64,000 nt of DNA from contig JACPUT010000002.1 of assembly GCA_016192145.1 (NCBI GenBank), positions 248,001 to 312,000 on the forward strand. Reading direction: 5' to 3'. Origin of the DNA: Acidobacteriota bacterium (lineage in GTDB: Bacteria; Acidobacteriota; Holophagae; Holophagales; Holophagaceae). Numbering within the stretch: position 1 is the stretch's first letter; each line of letters begins with the position of its first letter. The position numbers and the translations under genes were made by a program. Shown here in pieces: positions 1 to 15,288 of this stretch. Below the pieces are notes generated by a model. It was not told the origin of the DNA. It did no database searches and saw nothing but the letters and a program-made list of their open reading frames with translations.

Positions 1-132
1 GGCAAGGCCTTCGACAAGCTGCCGGGCAAGGTGGTCTCCGGACCCGCGCCCCGTCCGCCCCGCACCATGTCCTTCGATATCCGTGGATCCAAGATCTACA
101 TCACGGATACCGAGGGCGGCGGTGTGGGTTAA
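1..132 (+). CDS. Rieske iron-sulfur protein, C-terminal fragment
   Basis: The reading frame is open from the window edge and stops with TAA at 130-132, giving the last 43 residues. They contain GPAPRPP followed by a short beta-strand tail, which matches the end of Rieske [2Fe-2S] subunits of cytochrome bc/b6f complexes, where a GPAPRP segment follows the cluster-binding loops. The cluster ligands lie upstream and are not visible. It sits 10 bases before a cytochrome b gene, as in petA-petB type operons, so the Rieske call rests on both the motif and the context. The role would be high-potential electron acceptor from quinol at the outer face of the membrane. Confidence 0.8.
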   Translation, partial: GKAFDKLPGKVVSGPAPRPPRTMSFDIRGSKIYITDTEGGGVG

Positions 133-142
133 GGGAGAACCG

Positions 143-1753
143 ATGCTGATCAAGTTCTGGAGCTTTCTGCAGGGCCTCCTCCCCCGCCGCGGGGTGGTGG
201 GCCACGTCTATCACGGCGTCCTGAACGCCCCCGTCAACTTCTTCCAGTGGTTCATGGAGCGCTGGGACAAGATGGACCTCTTCGACGAAACCCACGTCGA
301 GAAGGCCAAGACCAACCCTTTCTACGCCATCGGCGGCATGTGGTACTGGGTCTGGATGCTCGTGATCGCCAGCGGCGTGCTGCTGATGATCTACTACGTT
401 CCCGACACCAGCCAGGCCTTCGTCTCCATCGAGCGCATGCAGGCCAACTGGAAGTGGGGCGAGATCCCCATCGGGGCCCTGATCCGCGGCATCCACAAGT
501 ACGGCGCCGACGCCTTCATCATCCTGGCGACCCTCAAGGTCTACCGCATGTGGTTCACGGGCGGCTACAAGAACGGCCATGAGCTCAGCTTCATCGTGGC
601 CCTGCTCCTGCTCATCATCGGCATGTACTCCGGCCTCACGGGCTACCTGCTGATCTGGAACCAGCGCGCCCTGTGGGCGACCAAGGTGATGGCCACTTTC
701 CCGGGCTACCTCGACCAGAACCCCAGCTGGATCCCCGGCGGCGACTTCATCAACTGGACGAACCAGGGCAAGACCACGGCCCAGATCCTGCTCGGCGGCA
801 CCTCCATCGGCCCCGCCACGGTGACGCGCTTCTACGCGTTCCACTTCATGCTCAGCTTCCTCGTCATGATCTTCTTCGAGCTGCGCGTCTACCATCGCGG
901 CTTCAAGCGGATGAACATCAGCCGCTGGACCAAGTTCATCCTCTTCATGATGCTGGCCGGCATGGCCGTCCTGATCCCCGCGGCCCAGGGCAGCCCCGCC
1001 AACCCCGAGGTGACGCCCAACCCGATCCTCAGCGATTGGTACTTCCTCGCGATGTACCACATGCTCAAGCTCCAGGATCCCTACCTCGCCACGGTGCTCA
1101 CCGTGGGCGTGCCGGCCCTCGTGTTGCTGTCCCTCTTCATGGACCGCCGCCCCGAGACGGGCTTCAAGGAGCGGGCCATCGCGAACTGGATCGGCATTGG
1201 TGGCCTGATCTACTTCATCGTCTTCAGCTTCCTCATCATCAACAGCATCGCGGACCTGCACCGGGACGCACCCCTCTGGTACTACTCCATGGGCCTCTTC
1301 CTGCTCATCGGGTACTTCCAGGACTGGGGCTACGTGATGAAGCGGGATGGCAAGCAGTGGTGGGAGACCTTCCACGTCTTCTTCGTGGCCTTCCTCCTCG
1401 TCTCCATGAGCGCCAACACGCTGTTCCACTACTTCGGCGACATCCGTGAATGGAACGTGGCCGCGGCCGCGGAACTGCCCAAGGTGCTGGCCGCCCACCC
1501 CGGGTTCACCCAGGACCAGGCCCTGGACTTCCTCGAGAAGACCAAGCCCACCCTCAACCTCTGGCTCACGCCCGCCGCCACCCTGGCGAAGGGGATGCCC
1601 AAGGGGATGGAACTCTGGAAGCTCCACGTGGCCCTCTGGTTGATCATCCCTGCCGTGGGCACCGTGGTCGGCCTGTTCCGTTGGGGCGCCAAGCGCGATG
1701 CCCTCCTCGATGCCGCGGCCGCCAAGGCCAAGGCGAAGACCGCCGGAGCCTAG
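143..1753 (+). CDS. Cytochrome b-like subunit lacking bH heme ligands
   Basis: This is a 536-residue polytopic membrane protein of the cytochrome b/b6 family, longer than a typical b6 because it carries the subunit-IV part and extra C-terminal helices. ATG 143 follows a GGGAGAA ribosome site; an upstream in-frame ATG at 83 lies inside the Rieske gene. Helix B has His118, but the residue 14 further on, normally the second heme His, is Lys132. Helix D has His234, but the residue 14 further on is Arg248. By cytochrome b numbering the remaining pair binds the p-side heme bL, and both n-side bH ligands are lost. The Qo-site PEWY motif reads SDWY (297-300), so the acidic residue is kept. It is probably a quinol-oxidising subunit without a complete transmembrane heme wire, working with the second cytochrome b at 2436. 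Confidence 0.9.
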   Translation: MLIKFWSFLQGLLPRRGVVGHVYHGVLNAPVNFFQWFMERWDKMDLFDETHVEKAKTNPFYAIGGMWYWVWMLVIASGVLLMIYYVPDTSQAFVSIERMQANWKWGEIPIGALIRGIHKYGADAFIILATLKVYRMWFTGGYKNGHELSFIVALLLLIIGMYSGLTGYLLIWNQRALWATKVMATFPGYLDQNPSWIPGGDFINWTNQGKTTAQILLGGTSIGPATVTRFYAFHFMLSFLVMIFFELRVYHRGFKRMNISRWTKFILFMMLAGMAVLIPAAQGSPANPEVTPNPILSDWYFLAMYHMLKLQDPYLATVLTVGVPALVLLSLFMDRRPETGFKERAIANWIGIGGLIYFIVFSFLIINSIADLHRDAPLWYYSMGLFLLIGYFQDWGYVMKRDGKQWWETFHVFFVAFLLVSMSANTLFHYFGDIREWNVAAAAELPKVLAAHPGFTQDQALDFLEKTKPTLNLWLTPAATLAKGMPKGMELWKLHVALWLIIPAVGTVVGLFRWGAKRDALLDAAAAKAKAKTAGA

Positions 1754-1756
1754 GCC

Positions 1757-2047
1757 ATGTATTCCAACGGGCGAATCAAGACCAGCAAGTGGGTGGGGAT
1801 CATCCTCGCCGTGATCCTGCTGAGCCAGTGCATCGCCCATTGGAAGGCCTTCTTCGCCAGCGCCGGATTCATGAGCTACTTCGTGTTGATCGCCACCCTG
1901 ACCCTCTTCCTCCTCCTGATGGTGGGGCTGATGGTGGTGGTCTACGCGGAGGAGAAGGTCCAGGGGAAAGTCCAGCACCCCCGGCCGTGGTTCGACCGCA
2001 TGGCTGACCGTTTCTTCCTGATTCATTCCGATTCGACGAGGGGTTGA
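1757..2047 (+). CDS. Small two-helix membrane protein of the bc operon
   Basis: A 96-residue protein I do not recognise. It has two predicted membrane helices, at about residues 11-28 and 38-62, and a charged C-terminus rich in Lys, Arg and Asp. The gene starts three bases after the cytochrome b stop and ends two bases before the next start, so it is translationally packed into the operon. There is no heme or Cys-cluster motif; the single Cys is in the first helix. It is likely an accessory or structural subunit of the bc-type complex, inferred from context only. Confidence 0.75.
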   Translation: MYSNGRIKTSKWVGIILAVILLSQCIAHWKAFFASAGFMSYFVLIATLTLFLLLMVGLMVVVYAEEKVQGKVQHPRPWFDRMADRFFLIHSDSTRG

Positions 2048-2049
2048 CC

Positions 2050-2427
2050 GTGAAAAAACGGAACATCTTCGGAACCATCTTCCTGGTCTCAGGCCTGGGG
2101 ATCTTCTTCGTGCTCGGCGCCAACAGCATCTCCGCGGAGCTGCACGACGTCCTGCATGAGGCCCCCATGGGCGGGAAGATGCGGCAAAAAACGGCCCCCG
2201 CTCCCGTGAACAAGGCGCTCGACGGCATCCTGTTCAAGAGCTATCCGACCGTGGGCGACCTGCCGCACATGCAGGCCGACTTCGGCAACAAGGGCGTGAG
2301 CACCAGCGACAACCCCTTCCAGCAGTTCAACGTCGTCCGGTGGATGGGTTGGGCCTTCGTGATCGCGGCGCTCGCCGAGATCGGCGTGGCCTACTGGACC
2401 CGCACCAAGGTCCAGGTCGAGGAGTAG
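2050..2427 (+). CDS. Small membrane protein of the bc operon, GTG start
   Basis: A 125-residue protein with no family I recognise. An N-terminal helix (about residues 6-24) and a C-terminal helix (about 100-117) flank a soluble segment of roughly 75 residues, probably on the outer side. I chose GTG at 2050 because GAGGGG (2038-2043) lies six bases upstream; a TTG at 2044 has no room for a ribosome site. No CxxCH is present, so it is not a c-type cytochrome replacing cytochrome c1 or f. It follows the preceding gene by two bases and is followed eight bases later by the second cytochrome b, so a role in that complex is inferred. Confidence 0.75.
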   Translation: MKKRNIFGTIFLVSGLGIFFVLGANSISAELHDVLHEAPMGGKMRQKTAPAPVNKALDGILFKSYPTVGDLPHMQADFGNKGVSTSDNPFQQFNVVRWMGWAFVIAALAEIGVAYWTRTKVQVEE

Positions 2428-2435
2428 GAGGCGCC

Positions 2436-3710
2436 ATGTACAAGAAATTCCTCCAGCTCACGAAGAACCTCACGGTCTCCCTGGAAAAGGGCGTCAACTT
2501 CCTCACGACCCATGAGCACAACCCCCTGTATTTCCACGGGGCCCTGCCGCTCTACACCTTCTGGTTCCTGATCTTCTCCGGGATCATGCTGTGGATGTAC
2601 TACATCCCCACCCTGGAGCGCGCCTGGTCCAGCGTGAACTACATCACCAGCCTGCCCGTGTTCCTCAAGGACGCCGCCGGCCACCTGGTGCTCGACAAGA
2701 ACGGGGCCCCCATCGTGGACGCCGTGAACTCGGCCACGGGCATCCCCTACGGCGCCGTCGTGCGCGGCATCCACCGCTGGGGCGCCGCCGCCATGATGAT
2801 CACCACGCTGCTGCACATGTTCCGCGTGTACTTCACGGATCGGCACCGCAGCTGGCGCTGGCTCCCCTGGATCTCCGGCGTGTTCCTGCTCCTCTTCGTC
2901 CTCTTCGTGGGCATCACCGGCTACCTCCTCGTGTGGGACGCCCGGGCCTACCGCATGGTCGTGGAGACCCAGGACTGGCTCCGGGCCATGCCCCTCATCG
3001 GCAACTGGTCCGCCGAGTTCCTCGTGGGCGGCACGGGCATCAACGACTACACCCTCACTCGCTTCTTCTTCTTCCACATCGGCGGGGCCACGCTCCTCTT
3101 CGTGCTGGTCTGGGTGCACTTCATCCGCCTGCACGATCCCGTGGTCACCCCCAGCCGGGCCACGAACTTCCTCACCCTCGGCTTCATCCTCGTGGCCGCC
3201 GGCGCCCTGCCCGCCATCAACATCACCGAACAGCTGATTCAGCAGTTCCCCTCCCTGGCCTCGGATCGCGCCTACATCGGCTCCGATTCCCCCGCCCAGA
3301 TCGGCGTGCTCGTGGAAACCATGCGCTATGACGCCTGGTACCTCTTCCCTTACTACCTGATCAACAAGGCCGGTGTCGGTGGCGCCTGGGCCATCCTCGG
3401 CGCCTCCACCCTGCTGCTCATGGTGGCCCCCTTCTATCCCAAGGACCGCCGCGACAACCTGGCCGCCGTCATCGAAGCCAAGTGCACGGGTTGCACCTTC
3501 TGCTCCCTGGATTGCCCCTTCGAGGCGATCACCATGCAGGAACGGGCCCCCGGATCCAAGTTCAAGCTCATCGCGGTCGTGCAGGAAGCGCGCTGCTCCG
3601 AGTGCGGCGTCTGCGTGGGGGCCTGCCCCTTCCAAGCCATCGAGTTGCCGAACACGCATTCCAAGACCATCGAAGCCGAAGTGCTCGACCTTCTGAAGAC
3701 GGGGGCCTAA
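2436..3710 (+). CDS. Cytochrome b fused to a 2x[4Fe-4S] ferredoxin domain
   Basis: A 424-residue fusion. Residues 1-335 are a cytochrome b N-domain with extra helices. All four heme ligands are present at the expected 14-residue steps, His113/His127 in helix B and His214/His228 in helix D. The Qo-type motif reads DAWY (299-302), so the usual Glu is Ala. Residues 345-405 are a bacterial-type ferredoxin with two CxxCxxCxxxCP motifs (C350, C353, C356, C360 and C387, C390, C393, C397). ATG 2436 follows GGAGG. With the helices placed as in cytochrome b, the clusters are likely on the cytoplasmic side, next to heme bH, which would link the quinone pool to a soluble or MvhD-type iron-sulfur chain. 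The next gene starts directly after the stop. Confidence 0.9.
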   Translation: MYKKFLQLTKNLTVSLEKGVNFLTTHEHNPLYFHGALPLYTFWFLIFSGIMLWMYYIPTLERAWSSVNYITSLPVFLKDAAGHLVLDKNGAPIVDAVNSATGIPYGAVVRGIHRWGAAAMMITTLLHMFRVYFTDRHRSWRWLPWISGVFLLLFVLFVGITGYLLVWDARAYRMVVETQDWLRAMPLIGNWSAEFLVGGTGINDYTLTRFFFFHIGGATLLFVLVWVHFIRLHDPVVTPSRATNFLTLGFILVAAGALPAINITEQLIQQFPSLASDRAYIGSDSPAQIGVLVETMRYDAWYLFPYYLINKAGVGGAWAILGASTLLLMVAPFYPKDRRDNLAAVIEAKCTGCTFCSLDCPFEAITMQERAPGSKFKLIAVVQEARCSECGVCVGACPFQAIELPNTHSKTIEAEVLDLLKTGA

Positions 3711-4127
3711 ATGAGCGAAGCCAATGTGAACACGGGCGAAAAGAAGCCCCGCGTCATCATCGGGTTCGTCTGCGAACGGTCCATCCCCATCACGGAGATG
3801 ATCGACGCGCAGAAGGCCCTCGTGGATGACCCCGAGACGAAGATCGTCATCCTGCCCTGCTCGGGCATGGTGAAGCCCACCCAGATGGAGCTGGCCCTCA
3901 CCAAAGGCGCCGACGCCACCTTCGTGTGCGGCTGCGCCATTGGCGACTGCCACTACCGCACGGGCAACATCATGATCCGCGAACGCCTCGAGGGCGAACG
4001 CAACCCCAAGCTGCGCAAGGCCACCGACAAGCGCCGCGTCGGCATGTTTTTCTACACCATGAAGGACCGCCGCACTTTCCTCGACGCCCTGGCCCAGTTC
4101 AAGGCCGCGGTTTCCGATATCCAGTAG
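3711..4127 (+). CDS. MvhD-like hydrogenase/heterodisulfide reductase iron-sulfur subunit
   Basis: A 138-residue soluble protein of the MvhD (FrhD/MvhD) family, which carries electrons between hydrogenases or other donors and heterodisulfide reductase-type modules. The family core is visible: PCSGMVKP (Cys50), then an ALTKGAD segment, then CGCAIGDCHYRTGN (Cys73, Cys75, Cys80). The N-terminal CxxC of classical MvhD is reduced to one Cys (Cys21), so cluster ligation may differ. The gene begins at the base after the stop of the ferredoxin-cytochrome b gene, which suggests the product docks on that ferredoxin domain. No hydrogenase or HdrABC gene is visible nearby, so its redox partner is unknown. 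Confidence 0.85.
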   Translation: MSEANVNTGEKKPRVIIGFVCERSIPITEMIDAQKALVDDPETKIVILPCSGMVKPTQMELALTKGADATFVCGCAIGDCHYRTGNIMIRERLEGERNPKLRKATDKRRVGMFFYTMKDRRTFLDALAQFKAAVSDIQ

Positions 4128-4473: not shown

Positions 4474-4587
4474 GCCATCCCCGAGCGGGGGGACCGCCTG
4501 CTCGCGTGGCTCGCGATGTCCCCCCAAGCCCCCACCAAGGGGGCCCGGCCAAGCCGGCCCCCCTTGCTCCACTCCCCGGAGGTCCCC

Positions 4588-4785
4588 ATGGATCCCATGC
4601 AGACCAAGCTCATGGTCATCACCTTCACGGTGGTGGGCCTCGCCTTCGCGGCCGGTTTCGTCATGGTGGCCGTGTGGGCCATCCGCGCCGGGCAATTCAA
4701 GGATGTCGAGGGCGTGAAGTACCGGATGCTCAAGGACTTCAACGCCAAGGGCGAACAGAAGGACGGCGAAGAGTTCAAGGGATAG
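4588..4785 (+). CDS. FixS/CcoS-like small membrane protein
   Basis: A 65-residue protein with one N-terminal helix (about residues 9-29) followed by WAIRAGQFKDVEG, which resembles the WxxxxGQFxDLEG signature after the helix of CcoS/FixS, the cbb3 oxidase assembly factor. I chose ATG 4588 because GGAGGT sits five bases upstream; the frame is open further upstream without a good start. No ccoNOQP genes are in view, so it may serve an oxidase encoded elsewhere or may have been co-opted by this complex. The 114-base gap before it holds a GC-rich imperfect hairpin (about 4539-4563) without a T tract. Confidence 0.6.
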   Translation: MDPMQTKLMVITFTVVGLAFAAGFVMVAVWAIRAGQFKDVEGVKYRMLKDFNAKGEQKDGEEFKG

Positions 4786-10775: not shown

Positions 10776-10904
10776 GAGGACCCTCAATGGCATGGGTGGG
10801 CCGCCAACCCAGGTGTGACGCGGCTCAAAAACCGGAGAAAGGGTGGCGCCGATCAATGCTTTAGACCCCTTCGCCCCCCCAGGCTGGGGCATCTGGAGGT
10901 TCCC

Positions 10905-13646
10905 ATGAGCACTGCCACCGTCGCCCCCGACGCTGTCCGCATCGACGCCTGGCGTGGCGAGCACGAGCTGGCCATGGGTCAGCTGGAGGCCCTCAAGGTG
11001 GCCCTCCGCACCCAGGACTGGGCCATGGTGGATGGGGTGGCCCGCTGGATGTACGAGGTGCAGAAGCCCCACCACGAGGCCGAGGAGCGGGACCTCTTCC
11101 CCCTGCTGGAGGAGATCGGTGCCGAGGCGCTGCACGAGCGGCTCCGCGAAGATCACCGCCGCGTGTGGGTGCTCACCCTGGATCTGCTGGCCGGCATCGT
11201 GGATGGCAAGGTGGCCAACCTCAAAGCCACCCAGGGCACGGCCCGGGAGCTGCTGGAGCTGATGACGGCCCACGTGGAGATCGAGGAGGAGCTGATGCTG
11301 CCCCTGCTGCGGGGCAAGTCCCTCTACACGCCGGAGGCCGTGACCGAGGAGGGCTACCTCATCCTCGAAAAGAAGCTGCTGGCGCCGGAGACCTGGTCCT
11401 TCATCGTGCAGGCGCCCATGGTGGCCCGGGGCCGCAAGCCCGGCCAGTTCCTCATGGTCTCCCCCTTTCCCAACAGCGAGCGCATCCCCCTCACGCTGGC
11501 CGGCGGCGATGCCCGTGGTGGCTGGATCCGCTTCATCATGCAGGAGGTGGGCGCCACCACCCAGGCCCTCGCCAAGTTCCAGGCGGGCGATCGCCTCTTC
11601 GCCGTGGCGGGCCCCATGGGCCATCCCACGGAGCTGGTGGACTCGGGCACCGTGGTGCTCGTGGCTGGCGGCTACGGCAGCGCGGCGGTGCTGCCCGCGG
11701 CAGAACTGCTCCACGCCCAGGGTCGGCGCGTGATCTCCATCCTCGGCGGCCGCAGCAAGGAGCGCGTGCTCCTCGCCCTCGAATTGGGCAACGCCTCCGA
11801 CGAACTGATCGTCACCACGGATGACGGCTCCCTGGGGCGCCAGGGCATCGTGACCCAGGCCCTGAAGGAGGTGCTGGAGCGCGAACCCGTCGCCCAGGTG
11901 GTGGCCGTGGGCCCGCTGCCCATGATGCGGGCCATCAGCGACCTCACGAAGCCCTTCGGCGTGCACACCCTCGTGAGCCTCAACGCGCTCATGGTGGATG
12001 GCACGGGCATGTGCGGCGGCTGCCGCGTGGCCGTGGACGGCGAAATGAAGTTCGCCTGCTTCGATGGCCCCGACTTCGACGGCCACAAGGTGGACTACGA
12101 CATGCTCAAGAACCGGCAGGACTGGTACCGGGGCATGGAGGCCGAGGCCAAGGACCACGCCTGCCACATCGGCCGCGCCACCGCGGGCGTCGGTTTCCAG
12201 ATGCCCGATCTGGGCGAGGCCGAAACGGAATTGGACTGGAAGAATCTGGACCTGGCCACGCTGAAGCCCAGTCAGAAGATGAAGATCCCGCGCCAGAACG
12301 TGGCCTGCCAGGACCCCGTGATCCGCGTGACCAACTTCAACGAGGTGACCCTCAGCCTCAGCCCCGAGCAGGCCCAGCTGGAAGCGTCGCGCTGCCTCCA
12401 GTGCAAGGCGCCCCACTGCATCGACGGCTGCCCCGTCTCCATCGACATTCCCCACTTCCTGCGGGAGATCGTGGCCGGCAACCCCCAAGGCGCCGCCATG
12501 GTCATCAAGCAGAGCTCCAGCCTCGGCTCCGTTTGCGGCCGCGTCTGCCCCCAGGAGAAGCAGTGCGAGGCCAAGTGCGTCGTCGGCATCAAGGGCGAGA
12601 GCGTGGCCATCGGCCGCCTGGAGCGCTACGCCTCCGACAGCCTCCTGGGCACGGACACCCTGCCGCCCCAGTTGCCCCCCACGGGCAAGAAGGTGGCCGT
12701 CATCGGCGCGGGCCCCGCGGGCCTTACGGTGGCGGGCGAGCTGGCCTGCAAGGGCCACGACGTCACCGTCTACGAGGCCCTGCACAAGGCGGGCGGCGTG
12801 CTGCTCTACGGCATCCCCGAGTTCCGCCTGCCCAGCGCCGTGGTGGATCAGGAGGTGGGCACCCTCAAGAAGCTGGGCGTGAAGATCGTCCTCAACACCC
12901 TCGTGGGCCGCTCCATCACCCTCGATGAACTGCGCGAGCAGAACGACGCCATCTTCATGGGCACGGGCGCCGGCCTGCCCAAGATGATGGGCGTGAAGGG
13001 CGAGGATCTGAAAGGCGTCTACACCGCCAACGAGTTCCTCACCCGCATCAACCTCATGCGCGCCGACCTCTTCCCCCACCACGGCACGCCCATCACCGTG
13101 GGCAAGGACGTGATCATCGTCGGCTGCGGCAACACGGCCATGGACGCCGCCCGCTGCGCCCGCCGCATGGGCGCGGAAAACGTCACCGTCGTCTACCGCC
13201 GCACGCAGAAGGAGAGCAGTGCCCGCCACGAGGAGCTGGAGCATGCGATGGAGGAGGGCGTGAAGTTCGCCTGGCTCCACACGCCCATGGAGCTGATCGG
13301 TGAGAACGGCTGGCTGAAGTTCGCCGAGTGCGCGCGCATGGAGCTCACGGAGCCGGGCCCCGACGGCCGCCGCGGCGTGCGCACCACCGATGAGCGCATC
13401 CAGATCCCCTGCGACACCCTCGTCATCGCCCTGGGCTTCGACGTGAACCCCCTCCTCACCCGCAACGAGCAGGGCCTCAAGACCCTCAAGGGCGGCGTGG
13501 TGGTGGTGAACGAAGAGACCGGCGAAACGAGCCTTCCCCAGGTCTTCGCCGGCGGCGACGTCATCACCGGCGGCGCCACCGTCATCCTCGCCATGGGCCA
13601 GGGCCGCCGCGCCGCGGCCGCGATGCATTCGCAGTTGAGCCACTGA
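10905..13646 (+). CDS. Hemerythrin-NfnA-NfnB fusion flavoprotein
   Basis: A 913-residue three-part fusion. Residues 1-140 form a hemerythrin-like HHE four-helix domain with candidate di-iron ligands His20, His57/Glu61, His84 and His123/Glu128. Residues 145-430 match the NfnA/PyrK-type ferredoxin-NAD(P) reductase, with an FAD domain, the NAD-site GGYGSA and a [2Fe-2S] motif Asp365, Cys370, Cys373, Cys385. Residues 455-913 match NfnB/glutamate synthase small subunit, with C497/C500/C505/C509 and C544/C548/C554/C558 regions, an FAD motif GAGPAG (601-606) and a second nucleotide motif GCGNTAMDAAR. NfnAB is a flavin-based electron-bifurcating NADH-ferredoxin:NADP transhydrogenase; the related SudAB acts on sulfide or polysulfide. 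ATG 10905 follows GGAGG. The hemerythrin part may sense or bind O2 or NO. Confidence 0.88.
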   Translation: MSTATVAPDAVRIDAWRGEHELAMGQLEALKVALRTQDWAMVDGVARWMYEVQKPHHEAEERDLFPLLEEIGAEALHERLREDHRRVWVLTLDLLAGIVDGKVANLKATQGTARELLELMTAHVEIEEELMLPLLRGKSLYTPEAVTEEGYLILEKKLLAPETWSFIVQAPMVARGRKPGQFLMVSPFPNSERIPLTLAGGDARGGWIRFIMQEVGATTQALAKFQAGDRLFAVAGPMGHPTELVDSGTVVLVAGGYGSAAVLPAAELLHAQGRRVISILGGRSKERVLLALELGNASDELIVTTDDGSLGRQGIVTQALKEVLEREPVAQVVAVGPLPMMRAISDLTKPFGVHTLVSLNALMVDGTGMCGGCRVAVDGEMKFACFDGPDFDGHKVDYDMLKNRQDWYRGMEAEAKDHACHIGRATAGVGFQMPDLGEAETELDWKNLDLATLKPSQKMKIPRQNVACQDPVIRVTNFNEVTLSLSPEQAQLEASRCLQCKAPHCIDGCPVSIDIPHFLREIVAGNPQGAAMVIKQSSSLGSVCGRVCPQEKQCEAKCVVGIKGESVAIGRLERYASDSLLGTDTLPPQLPPTGKKVAVIGAGPAGLTVAGELACKGHDVTVYEALHKAGGVLLYGIPEFRLPSAVVDQEVGTLKKLGVKIVLNTLVGRSITLDELREQNDAIFMGTGAGLPKMMGVKGEDLKGVYTANEFLTRINLMRADLFPHHGTPITVGKDVIIVGCGNTAMDAARCARRMGAENVTVVYRRTQKESSARHEELEHAMEEGVKFAWLHTPMELIGENGWLKFAECARMELTEPGPDGRRGVRTTDERIQIPCDTLVIALGFDVNPLLTRNEQGLKTLKGGVVVVNEETGETSLPQVFAGGDVITGGATVILAMGQGRRAAAAMHSQLSH

Positions 13647-13773: not shown

Positions 13774-15288
<1,515 letters not shown>

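Follow-up and report, generated by a model that had tools for sequence, protein, structure and literature searches.

Complex III usually contains a pair of identical cytochromes b. The locus described here seemingly encodes two different ones, b1 and b2, which have lost opposite halves. It lies at the start of a 64,000-nucleotide stretch of a genome of the family Holophagaceae, Acidobacteriota (GCA_016192145.1, contig JACPUT010000002.1, positions 248,001 to 312,000; hereafter the window). The question raised by this locus was by which route electrons would pass through such an unequal pair, and whether they could enter or leave it on the cytoplasmic side through the iron-sulfur centres fused to one of its members.

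Organization of the gene cluster

The window begins inside a unit of 12 genes, all on one strand and separated by short gaps: ccoN, ccoOP, diheme cytochrome c, Rieske protein, b1, two small transmembrane proteins, b2-ferredoxin, MvhD, two tiny transmembrane open reading frames and a CcoS-like gene (Table 1). The first four genes, including a ccoO-ccoP fusion, were located in the genome sequence upstream (L002). CcoN and CcoO/P of a cbb3 (C-type) oxygen reductase are present (COX1, E=2.8e-84; FixO, E=2.3e-28), with the ccoN match to TIGR00780 (E=5.5e-89) falling under the equivalog cut-off. Both Cys-X-His motifs are found in the Rieske protein, which matches TIGR01416 with E=6.7e-11, under the curated cut-off; its Melainabacteria homologue matches the Pfam Rieske family above the cut-off.

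Table 1. Features of the cluster inside the window (window numbering, except where the locus L002 is given).
Feature	Position	Strand	Remarks
Rieske [2Fe-2S] protein gene, 3' end	1-132	+	Whole gene L002:11476-12132, begins upstream of the window; CPHLGC, CPCHLS
Cytochrome b1, 536 aa	143-1753	+	bL ligands H118, H234 kept; K132, R248 at bH positions; Qo WA and SDWY kept
b1 H118	494-496	+	bL ligand of helix B, invariant
b1 K132	536-538	+	bH-ligand position of helix B; K or R in 14/14
b1 R248	884-886	+	bH-ligand position of helix D; R or Y in 14/14
tmA, small membrane protein	1757-2047	+	Conserved in the cluster; no family match above cut-off
tmB, small membrane protein	2044-2427	+	Position conserved in the cluster
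Cytochrome b2 with C-terminal ferredoxin, 424 aa	2436-3710	+	ATG 2436, stop TAA 3708-3710
b2 heme ligands and Qo motifs			H113, H127, H214, H228 all present; Qo motifs altered: RM in cd1, DAWY
2x[4Fe-4S] domain of b2, HdrA-like	3471-3650	+	C350, C353, C356, C360, C387, C390, C393, C397
MvhD/FlpD-like protein, 138 aa	3711-4127	+	Invariant C21, C50, C75, C80
Tiny one-helix membrane protein, 48 aa	4137-4283	+	Conserved in Holophagaceae clusters
Tiny one-helix membrane protein, 59 aa	4294-4473	+	Conserved in Holophagaceae clusters
CcoS/FixS-like cbb3 oxidase assembly protein	4516-4785	+	Pfam FixS E=9e-9

Cytochrome b2 carries an HdrA-like ferredoxin and is followed by MvhD

The original prediction had described a cytochrome b with a C-terminal 2x[4Fe-4S] tail, followed without a gap by an MvhD-like subunit. 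The open reading frames, Pfam, the NCBIfam HdrA2 model and solved HdrA chains all confirmed this description. The start codon of MvhD begins at the base right after the b2 stop codon, so that the two codons touch. The main Pfam matches lie above the curated cut-offs: Cytochrome_B (E=1.7e-27) and Fer4_7 (E=9.7e-10) on b2, and FlpD on MvhD (E=1.7e-18; 67.3 bits vs a cut-off of 22.3).

MvhD serves electron transfer in hydrogenase/heterodisulfide reductase bifurcating systems. Segment 572-639 of the HdrA2 model aligned with the ferredoxin tail of b2, followed by segment 643-771 on MvhD. Furthermore, the tail is matched by the ferredoxin region at the C-terminus of HdrA in the solved chains 5odc_A (residues 573-637), 9sfi_A and 7bkb_A, and MvhD is similar to chains 5odc_D and 8rvv_F. 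Because the model spans tail and MvhD in succession, and the tail matches solved HdrA chains, b2-ferredoxin and MvhD together resemble an electron-input arm of HdrA type attached to a cytochrome b. The order of ferredoxin and MvhD is shared with the HdrA/HdrA2-MvhD input module of methanogens and their relatives. Unlike that module, the arm sits here on a membrane cytochrome b, in a cluster without the FAD-binding HdrA body, MvhAG or HdrBC.

b2 keeps the ligands of both hemes, and its cytochrome b part stops after helix F. The predicted structure (pLDDT 81) folds as a bc1-type cytochrome b. Since the ferredoxin domain comes after helix F and the basic stretch YPKDRRDN, a positive-inside mark, it is predicted to face the cytoplasm. 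The four heme histidines and the eight ferredoxin cysteines were invariant in 48 sequences from many phyla, and the four cysteines of MvhD in 16 sequences; the latter would be enough for one predicted [2Fe-2S] cluster. With ligands invariant in 48 sequences and the gene order recurring in Rieske-containing loci (referred to as type I), these features are not due to chance.

Complementary losses in b1 and b2

A partner without heme bH had also been predicted, and b1 is indeed such a protein, with lysine and arginine in place of the ligands (Table 1). In a MAFFT alignment of 105 cytochromes b, the bL histidines were found in every sequence, and both bH histidines in 91 of 91 non-b1 proteins and in none of the 14 b1 proteins. 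When b1 was aligned to cytochrome b6 structures, the change in helix B fell on the bH ligand. Inspection of the alignment by eye gave no conserved, shifted replacement histidine in helix D of b1. An AlphaFold model of b1 was discarded (pLDDT 48), so that the assessment of its bH pocket relied on the sequence only. The best PDB matches of both b1 and b2 are cytochrome b6 or the cytochrome b of bc1.

At the Qo site the picture is reversed. All 14 b1 proteins keep the Trp and the small residue (Ala) of the cd1 helix as well as S-D-W-Y. All 14 b2 proteins have Ile, Leu or Met at the Gly/Ala position of the cd1 helix. Similarly, motif comparison showed that PEWY is replaced in each b2 by D-A-W-Y, D-V-W-Y or x-D-W-F-Y (DWFY), with the acidic residue retained as Asp. 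The small-residue position is presumably that of G143 in mitochondrial cytochrome b and G158 in R. capsulatus; the effect of Ile, Leu or Met there is extrapolated from the Trp mutant. The losses are complementary, with bH ligands gone in b1 and Qo residues altered in b2, in 14 of 14 proteins each and in two phyla. The divided labour postulated for the two subunits is thereby strongly supported.

Loss of ligands could also reflect decay, with b1 a degenerating paralogue in a declining bc1 cluster. b1 is strongly conserved, with 73-76% identity between genera, 41% to Melainabacteria and long invariant stretches. Its Qo and bL residues are intact, and it is retained in genomes of about 1 Mb. Decay is thus a most improbable account, and the reading of b1 as a decayed paralogue was rejected on the strength of its conservation.

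A Rieske/cytochrome b complex has four heme ligands per cytochrome b. b2 carries all four and b1 does not, and for this reason we file this natural pair with complementary losses as a new variant among Rieske/cytochrome b complexes. In the open-licence literature, neither a description of such a pair nor biochemistry of this gene set was found. Nor was a publication of the set as an ordinary bc1 found there, the nearest being PMC6349859, which covers petB and petC only.

Distribution and origins of the two cytochromes b

Every Holophagaceae locus of sufficient length had the same gene order. Five genomes of the Melainabacteria phylum share the nine core genes, ccoN to MvhD, in that order as well; in one of the five (L162), tmA was not detected by tblastn. 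Rieske, bH-less cytochrome b, b-ferredoxin and MvhD genes hence co-occur in other genomes, a check that the original prediction had proposed. In type I clusters, the Rieske gene, b1 and b2 each occur once and in constant order. Of 93 genomes of the class Holophagae, 14 contained b1; in the large genus labelled g4 it was not found. In the window genome, b1 and b2 were the only cytochromes b of this kind found; the same search found canonical ones in relatives. Three Holophagaceae genomes of about 1 Mb (G009, G017 and G024; loci L020, L018 and L017) retain the cluster, complete where the contig allows, and it holds their only detected Rieske-type cytochrome b genes.

For two Melainabacteria, HO7A and BJ4A, petB/petC of b6f beside a C-type oxidase were reported and named a "Complex III/IV combination"; the main text makes no remark on missing bH ligands, ferredoxin or MvhD (PMC6349859). 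The likeness to the present cluster lies in the C-type oxygen reductase genes beside cytochrome b and Rieske genes.

The direct search for b1 covered the class Holophagae, samples of the Melainabacteria phylum and of Planctomycetota, and 11 other genomes. These 11 genomes, which contain a Rieske-free relative, gave only weak matches to b1 (E no better than 3e-25, vs <1e-170 for full-length b1). In 392 Planctomycetota genomes no bH-less b1 was found: the best match had E=1.6e-42, and it and several other translations that were read keep the helix B histidine. A scan of viral contigs with b2 gave no relative. Of the five Melainabacteria-phylum genomes, four escaped the whole-GTDB scan, which was run with b2 motifs; more members are therefore likely.

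In a quick maximum-likelihood tree, b1 formed one clade (support 100) nearer the canonical bc cytochromes; type I b2 lay nearer a family of cytochrome b-ferredoxin-MvhD proteins. Both b1 and b2 divided into a Holophagaceae and a Melainabacteria group. Branch support in this tree is SH-aLRT only, and some deep joins involve long branches. The tree rules out a recent tandem duplication as the source of b1 and b2, which have separate phylogenetic origins.

Relatives of b2 were found in Myxococcota, Verrucomicrobiota, Planctomycetota, Balneolota, Betaproteobacteria and other Acidobacteriota. Most are one polypeptide, cytochrome b-2x[4Fe-4S]-MvhD, often encoded beside a heme-copper oxidase subunit and SCO/SenC, and beside most of them no Rieske gene was detected. 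Cytoplasmic wiring of cytochrome b is wider than the Rieske-containing form, and probably older. In Betaproteobacteria, one gene joins a cytochrome b with [2Fe-2S], FAD-binding and NAD-binding domains of a reductase (L080:6456-8402). Next to this reductase fusion and to a heme-copper oxidase subunit lies another cytochrome b, to which 2x[4Fe-4S] and MvhD are fused (L080, 8923-10479); the same is seen in L079, L089, L090 and L109.

Some minor features of the Rieske-free family were recorded (L024:6736-8829, L031, L070-L113, L128-L134). Its members often have a further C-terminal domain and often stand beside COX1, COX2-like and SCO/SenC genes. The neighbouring COX1 carries an unusual motif, GHQSQQVN, and may be a NO reductase.

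Proposed electron transfer through the b1-b2 pair

The cluster resembles bc1/b6f in its Rieske protein, cytochrome b fold, bL ligands, Qo motif (in b1) and c-type cytochrome partner. It differs from them in having two non-identical cytochromes b with complementary losses, no bH in b1, and an iron-sulfur domain and MvhD on the cytoplasmic side. We incline to the view that it encodes a modified Rieske/cytochrome b complex based on two unlike cytochromes b, with electrons crossing from bL to bL, an iron-sulfur wire at the bH of b2 and its own co-encoded cbb3 oxidase. Starting from gene content, ligands, motifs and conservation, we infer the heterodimer, the bL-bL transfer, the function of the wire and its direction.

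In such a complex, quinol would be oxidised at the P side on b1. The first electron would pass via the Rieske protein and the diheme cytochrome c to cbb3, and the second, low-potential electron to heme bL of b1. Because b1 has no heme bH, crossing to bL of b2 would be obligatory. From there the electron would reach bH of b2, where it would meet both the quinone-reduction side of b2 and the cytoplasmic wire, consisting of the 2x[4Fe-4S] domain and then the [2Fe-2S] cluster of MvhD. The wire could either inject electrons into the quinone site or drain them (bifurcation).

A heterodimer is favoured since the bL electron of a b1 homodimer could not get to the N side, and in a b1-b2 pair it could. 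A second argument comes from R. capsulatus, where G158W inactivates Qo and H212N the bH/Qi branch, and where an engineered dimer with one mutation per half still works via bL-bL transfer (PMC4330944). The natural pair repeats the pattern of this cross-inactivated R. capsulatus / R. sphaeroides fusion (PMC4330944), in which one half is blocked at bH/Qi and the other at Qo; at the level of sequence, this argues for a heterodimer. Electrons would be obliged to pass between its subunits, and an iron-sulfur wire would connect on the cytoplasmic side at bH. Unlike in the engineered protein, the halves are natural separate genes, the cd1 residue is Ile, Leu or Met instead of Trp, and the pairing is deduced from sequence. 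More tentatively, and just short of an even case, an obligate natural heterodimer may send all low-potential electrons from bL to bL and on to the HdrA-like ferredoxin/MvhD wire, which would make it a membrane complex for quinol bifurcation or confurcation, linked to the co-encoded cbb3.

b1 and b2 may instead belong to separate complexes. The co-encoded enzymes would then be a non-bifurcating quinol:cytochrome c reductase of b1 and Rieske protein, and an independent cytoplasmic-donor:quinone reductase of b2-ferredoxin and MvhD. The separate origins of b1 and b2 speak for this arrangement, as does the b2 family itself, found mostly as b-ferredoxin-MvhD fusions beside heme-copper oxidase and SCO/SenC; because this family is mostly Rieske-free, b2 can work without b1. 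However, b1 alone would leave the bL electron without an exit, and complementary losses and co-occurrence in two phyla fit mutual dependence. We regard two separate enzymes as unlikely.

Electron crossing between the bL hemes of complex III has been called "a still controversial issue" (PMC4330944). The debate on this bridge in vivo has so far rested mainly on engineered mutants. Should b1 and b2 share one complex, electrons would have no other route than the bridge, nature would have run the cross-inactivation experiment itself, and the two phyla would provide two systems for measuring the bridge.

Possible directions of the cytoplasmic wire

The original prediction proposed that electrons enter or leave bH through iron-sulfur centres instead of a Qi site, coupling quinol oxidation to a low-potential carrier. 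Sequence, topology and the HdrA match support the cytoplasmic wiring. The wire may also replace the Qi site and reach a low-potential carrier, and electrons could flow along it in either direction. Bifurcation to a low-potential carrier is possible given the arrangement of the predicted cofactors.

In the b1-b2 heterodimer, the wire could run inward. Ferredoxin, or NAD(P)H via a flavoprotein docking on MvhD, would donate through the ferredoxin domain to bH of b2, and quinone would be reduced there. A ferredoxin:quinone reduction has been discussed for cytochrome b6f in cyclic electron flow, and the inward wire would be its hard-wired counterpart. The betaproteobacterial fusion of cytochrome b with [2Fe-2S], FAD and NAD domains, which adjoins b-ferredoxin-MvhD, points in this direction, reductase domains of this type normally being fed by NAD(P)H; however, it sits in a Rieske-free relative and not in type I. 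Furthermore, no NuoF was found in the five Melainabacteria-phylum genomes, which makes oxidation of ferredoxin by the chain plausible. An inward wire is possible on this evidence.

The same heterodimer with the wire running outward appears rather unlikely. Quinol would drive a low-potential cytoplasmic carrier via bL, bH, ferredoxin and MvhD, and the second electron, going to O2, would pay for it. The architecture permits this, and the co-encoded cbb3 would exert a strong high-potential pull. A parallel proposal exists for the Rieske/cytochrome b complexes of anammox bacteria (Kuenenia), for which NAD(P) oxidoreductase subunits were described, bifurcation was proposed and Rieske potentials were measured (PMC12954380). 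As in those complexes (PMC12954380), a cytoplasmic redox module is tied to cytochrome b by iron-sulfur clusters. They are modelled as homodimers with a flavin/NAD(P) subunit, whereas the present cluster has ferredoxin and MvhD and no flavoprotein. Against an outward wire, the cluster is without an NAD(P) or flavin subunit, and Holophagaceae possess a NuoF-type complex I and would have no obvious need for reverse electron flow.

Both directions are forms of the preferred heterodimeric complex, and their likelihoods are contained in its own. We lean slightly to injection because of the betaproteobacterial reductase fusion and the NuoF-less Melainabacteria. Through the ferredoxin/MvhD tail, a Rieske/cytochrome b complex would be linked to soluble carriers of low potential in a way fixed by its genes. 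This link bears on ferredoxin:quinone reduction in cyclic electron flow and on the proposed NAD(P)H-forming anammox complexes.

Candidate partners and neighbouring genes

A hydrogenase or heterodisulfide reductase as partner of MvhD, as the original prediction had evoked, was not borne out by the operon, which contains no such gene. MvhD is the sole FlpD gene in six of the seven type I genomes searched (the window genome and five others), with two more in G006. No HdrA flavoprotein, MvhAG or HdrBC was found in the type I clusters examined. Likewise, there was no flavoprotein or NAD(P) oxidoreductase gene within the type I cluster and none consistently adjoining it, and no constant cytoplasmic partner gene was found near type I clusters. 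NuoD was present in each of the eight type I genomes tested. The most likely counterpart of the wire, with which it would exchange electrons, is a soluble ferredoxin or an NAD(P)H flavoprotein; our best guesses for the partner are ferredoxin, or NAD(P)H via a separate flavoprotein.

Two candidates for a general partner were rejected. For an AprAB-like flavoprotein/ferredoxin encoded near the Melainabacteria clusters, nothing closely similar was found in the type I Holophagaceae genomes searched. Several type I genomes lack the other candidate, a fused hemerythrin-NfnAB protein, which occurs also in genomes that do not have the cluster.

In all five Melainabacteria-phylum genomes, the vicinity of the cluster includes AprA/AprB-like adenylylsulfate reductase genes, encoded on the other strand (L069:11844-14118, L160-L163). 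In the window, about 6 kb downstream of the cluster, positions 10893-13646 (+) encode one polypeptide with a hemerythrin-like N-terminus and NfnA-like and NfnB-like halves (sulfide/dihydroorotate dehydrogenase-like and GltA-like). Its relatives occur also in genomes without the cluster. Also downstream, at 13855-15288 (+), a tryptophanase/tyrosine phenol-lyase-like protein was recognised by eye.
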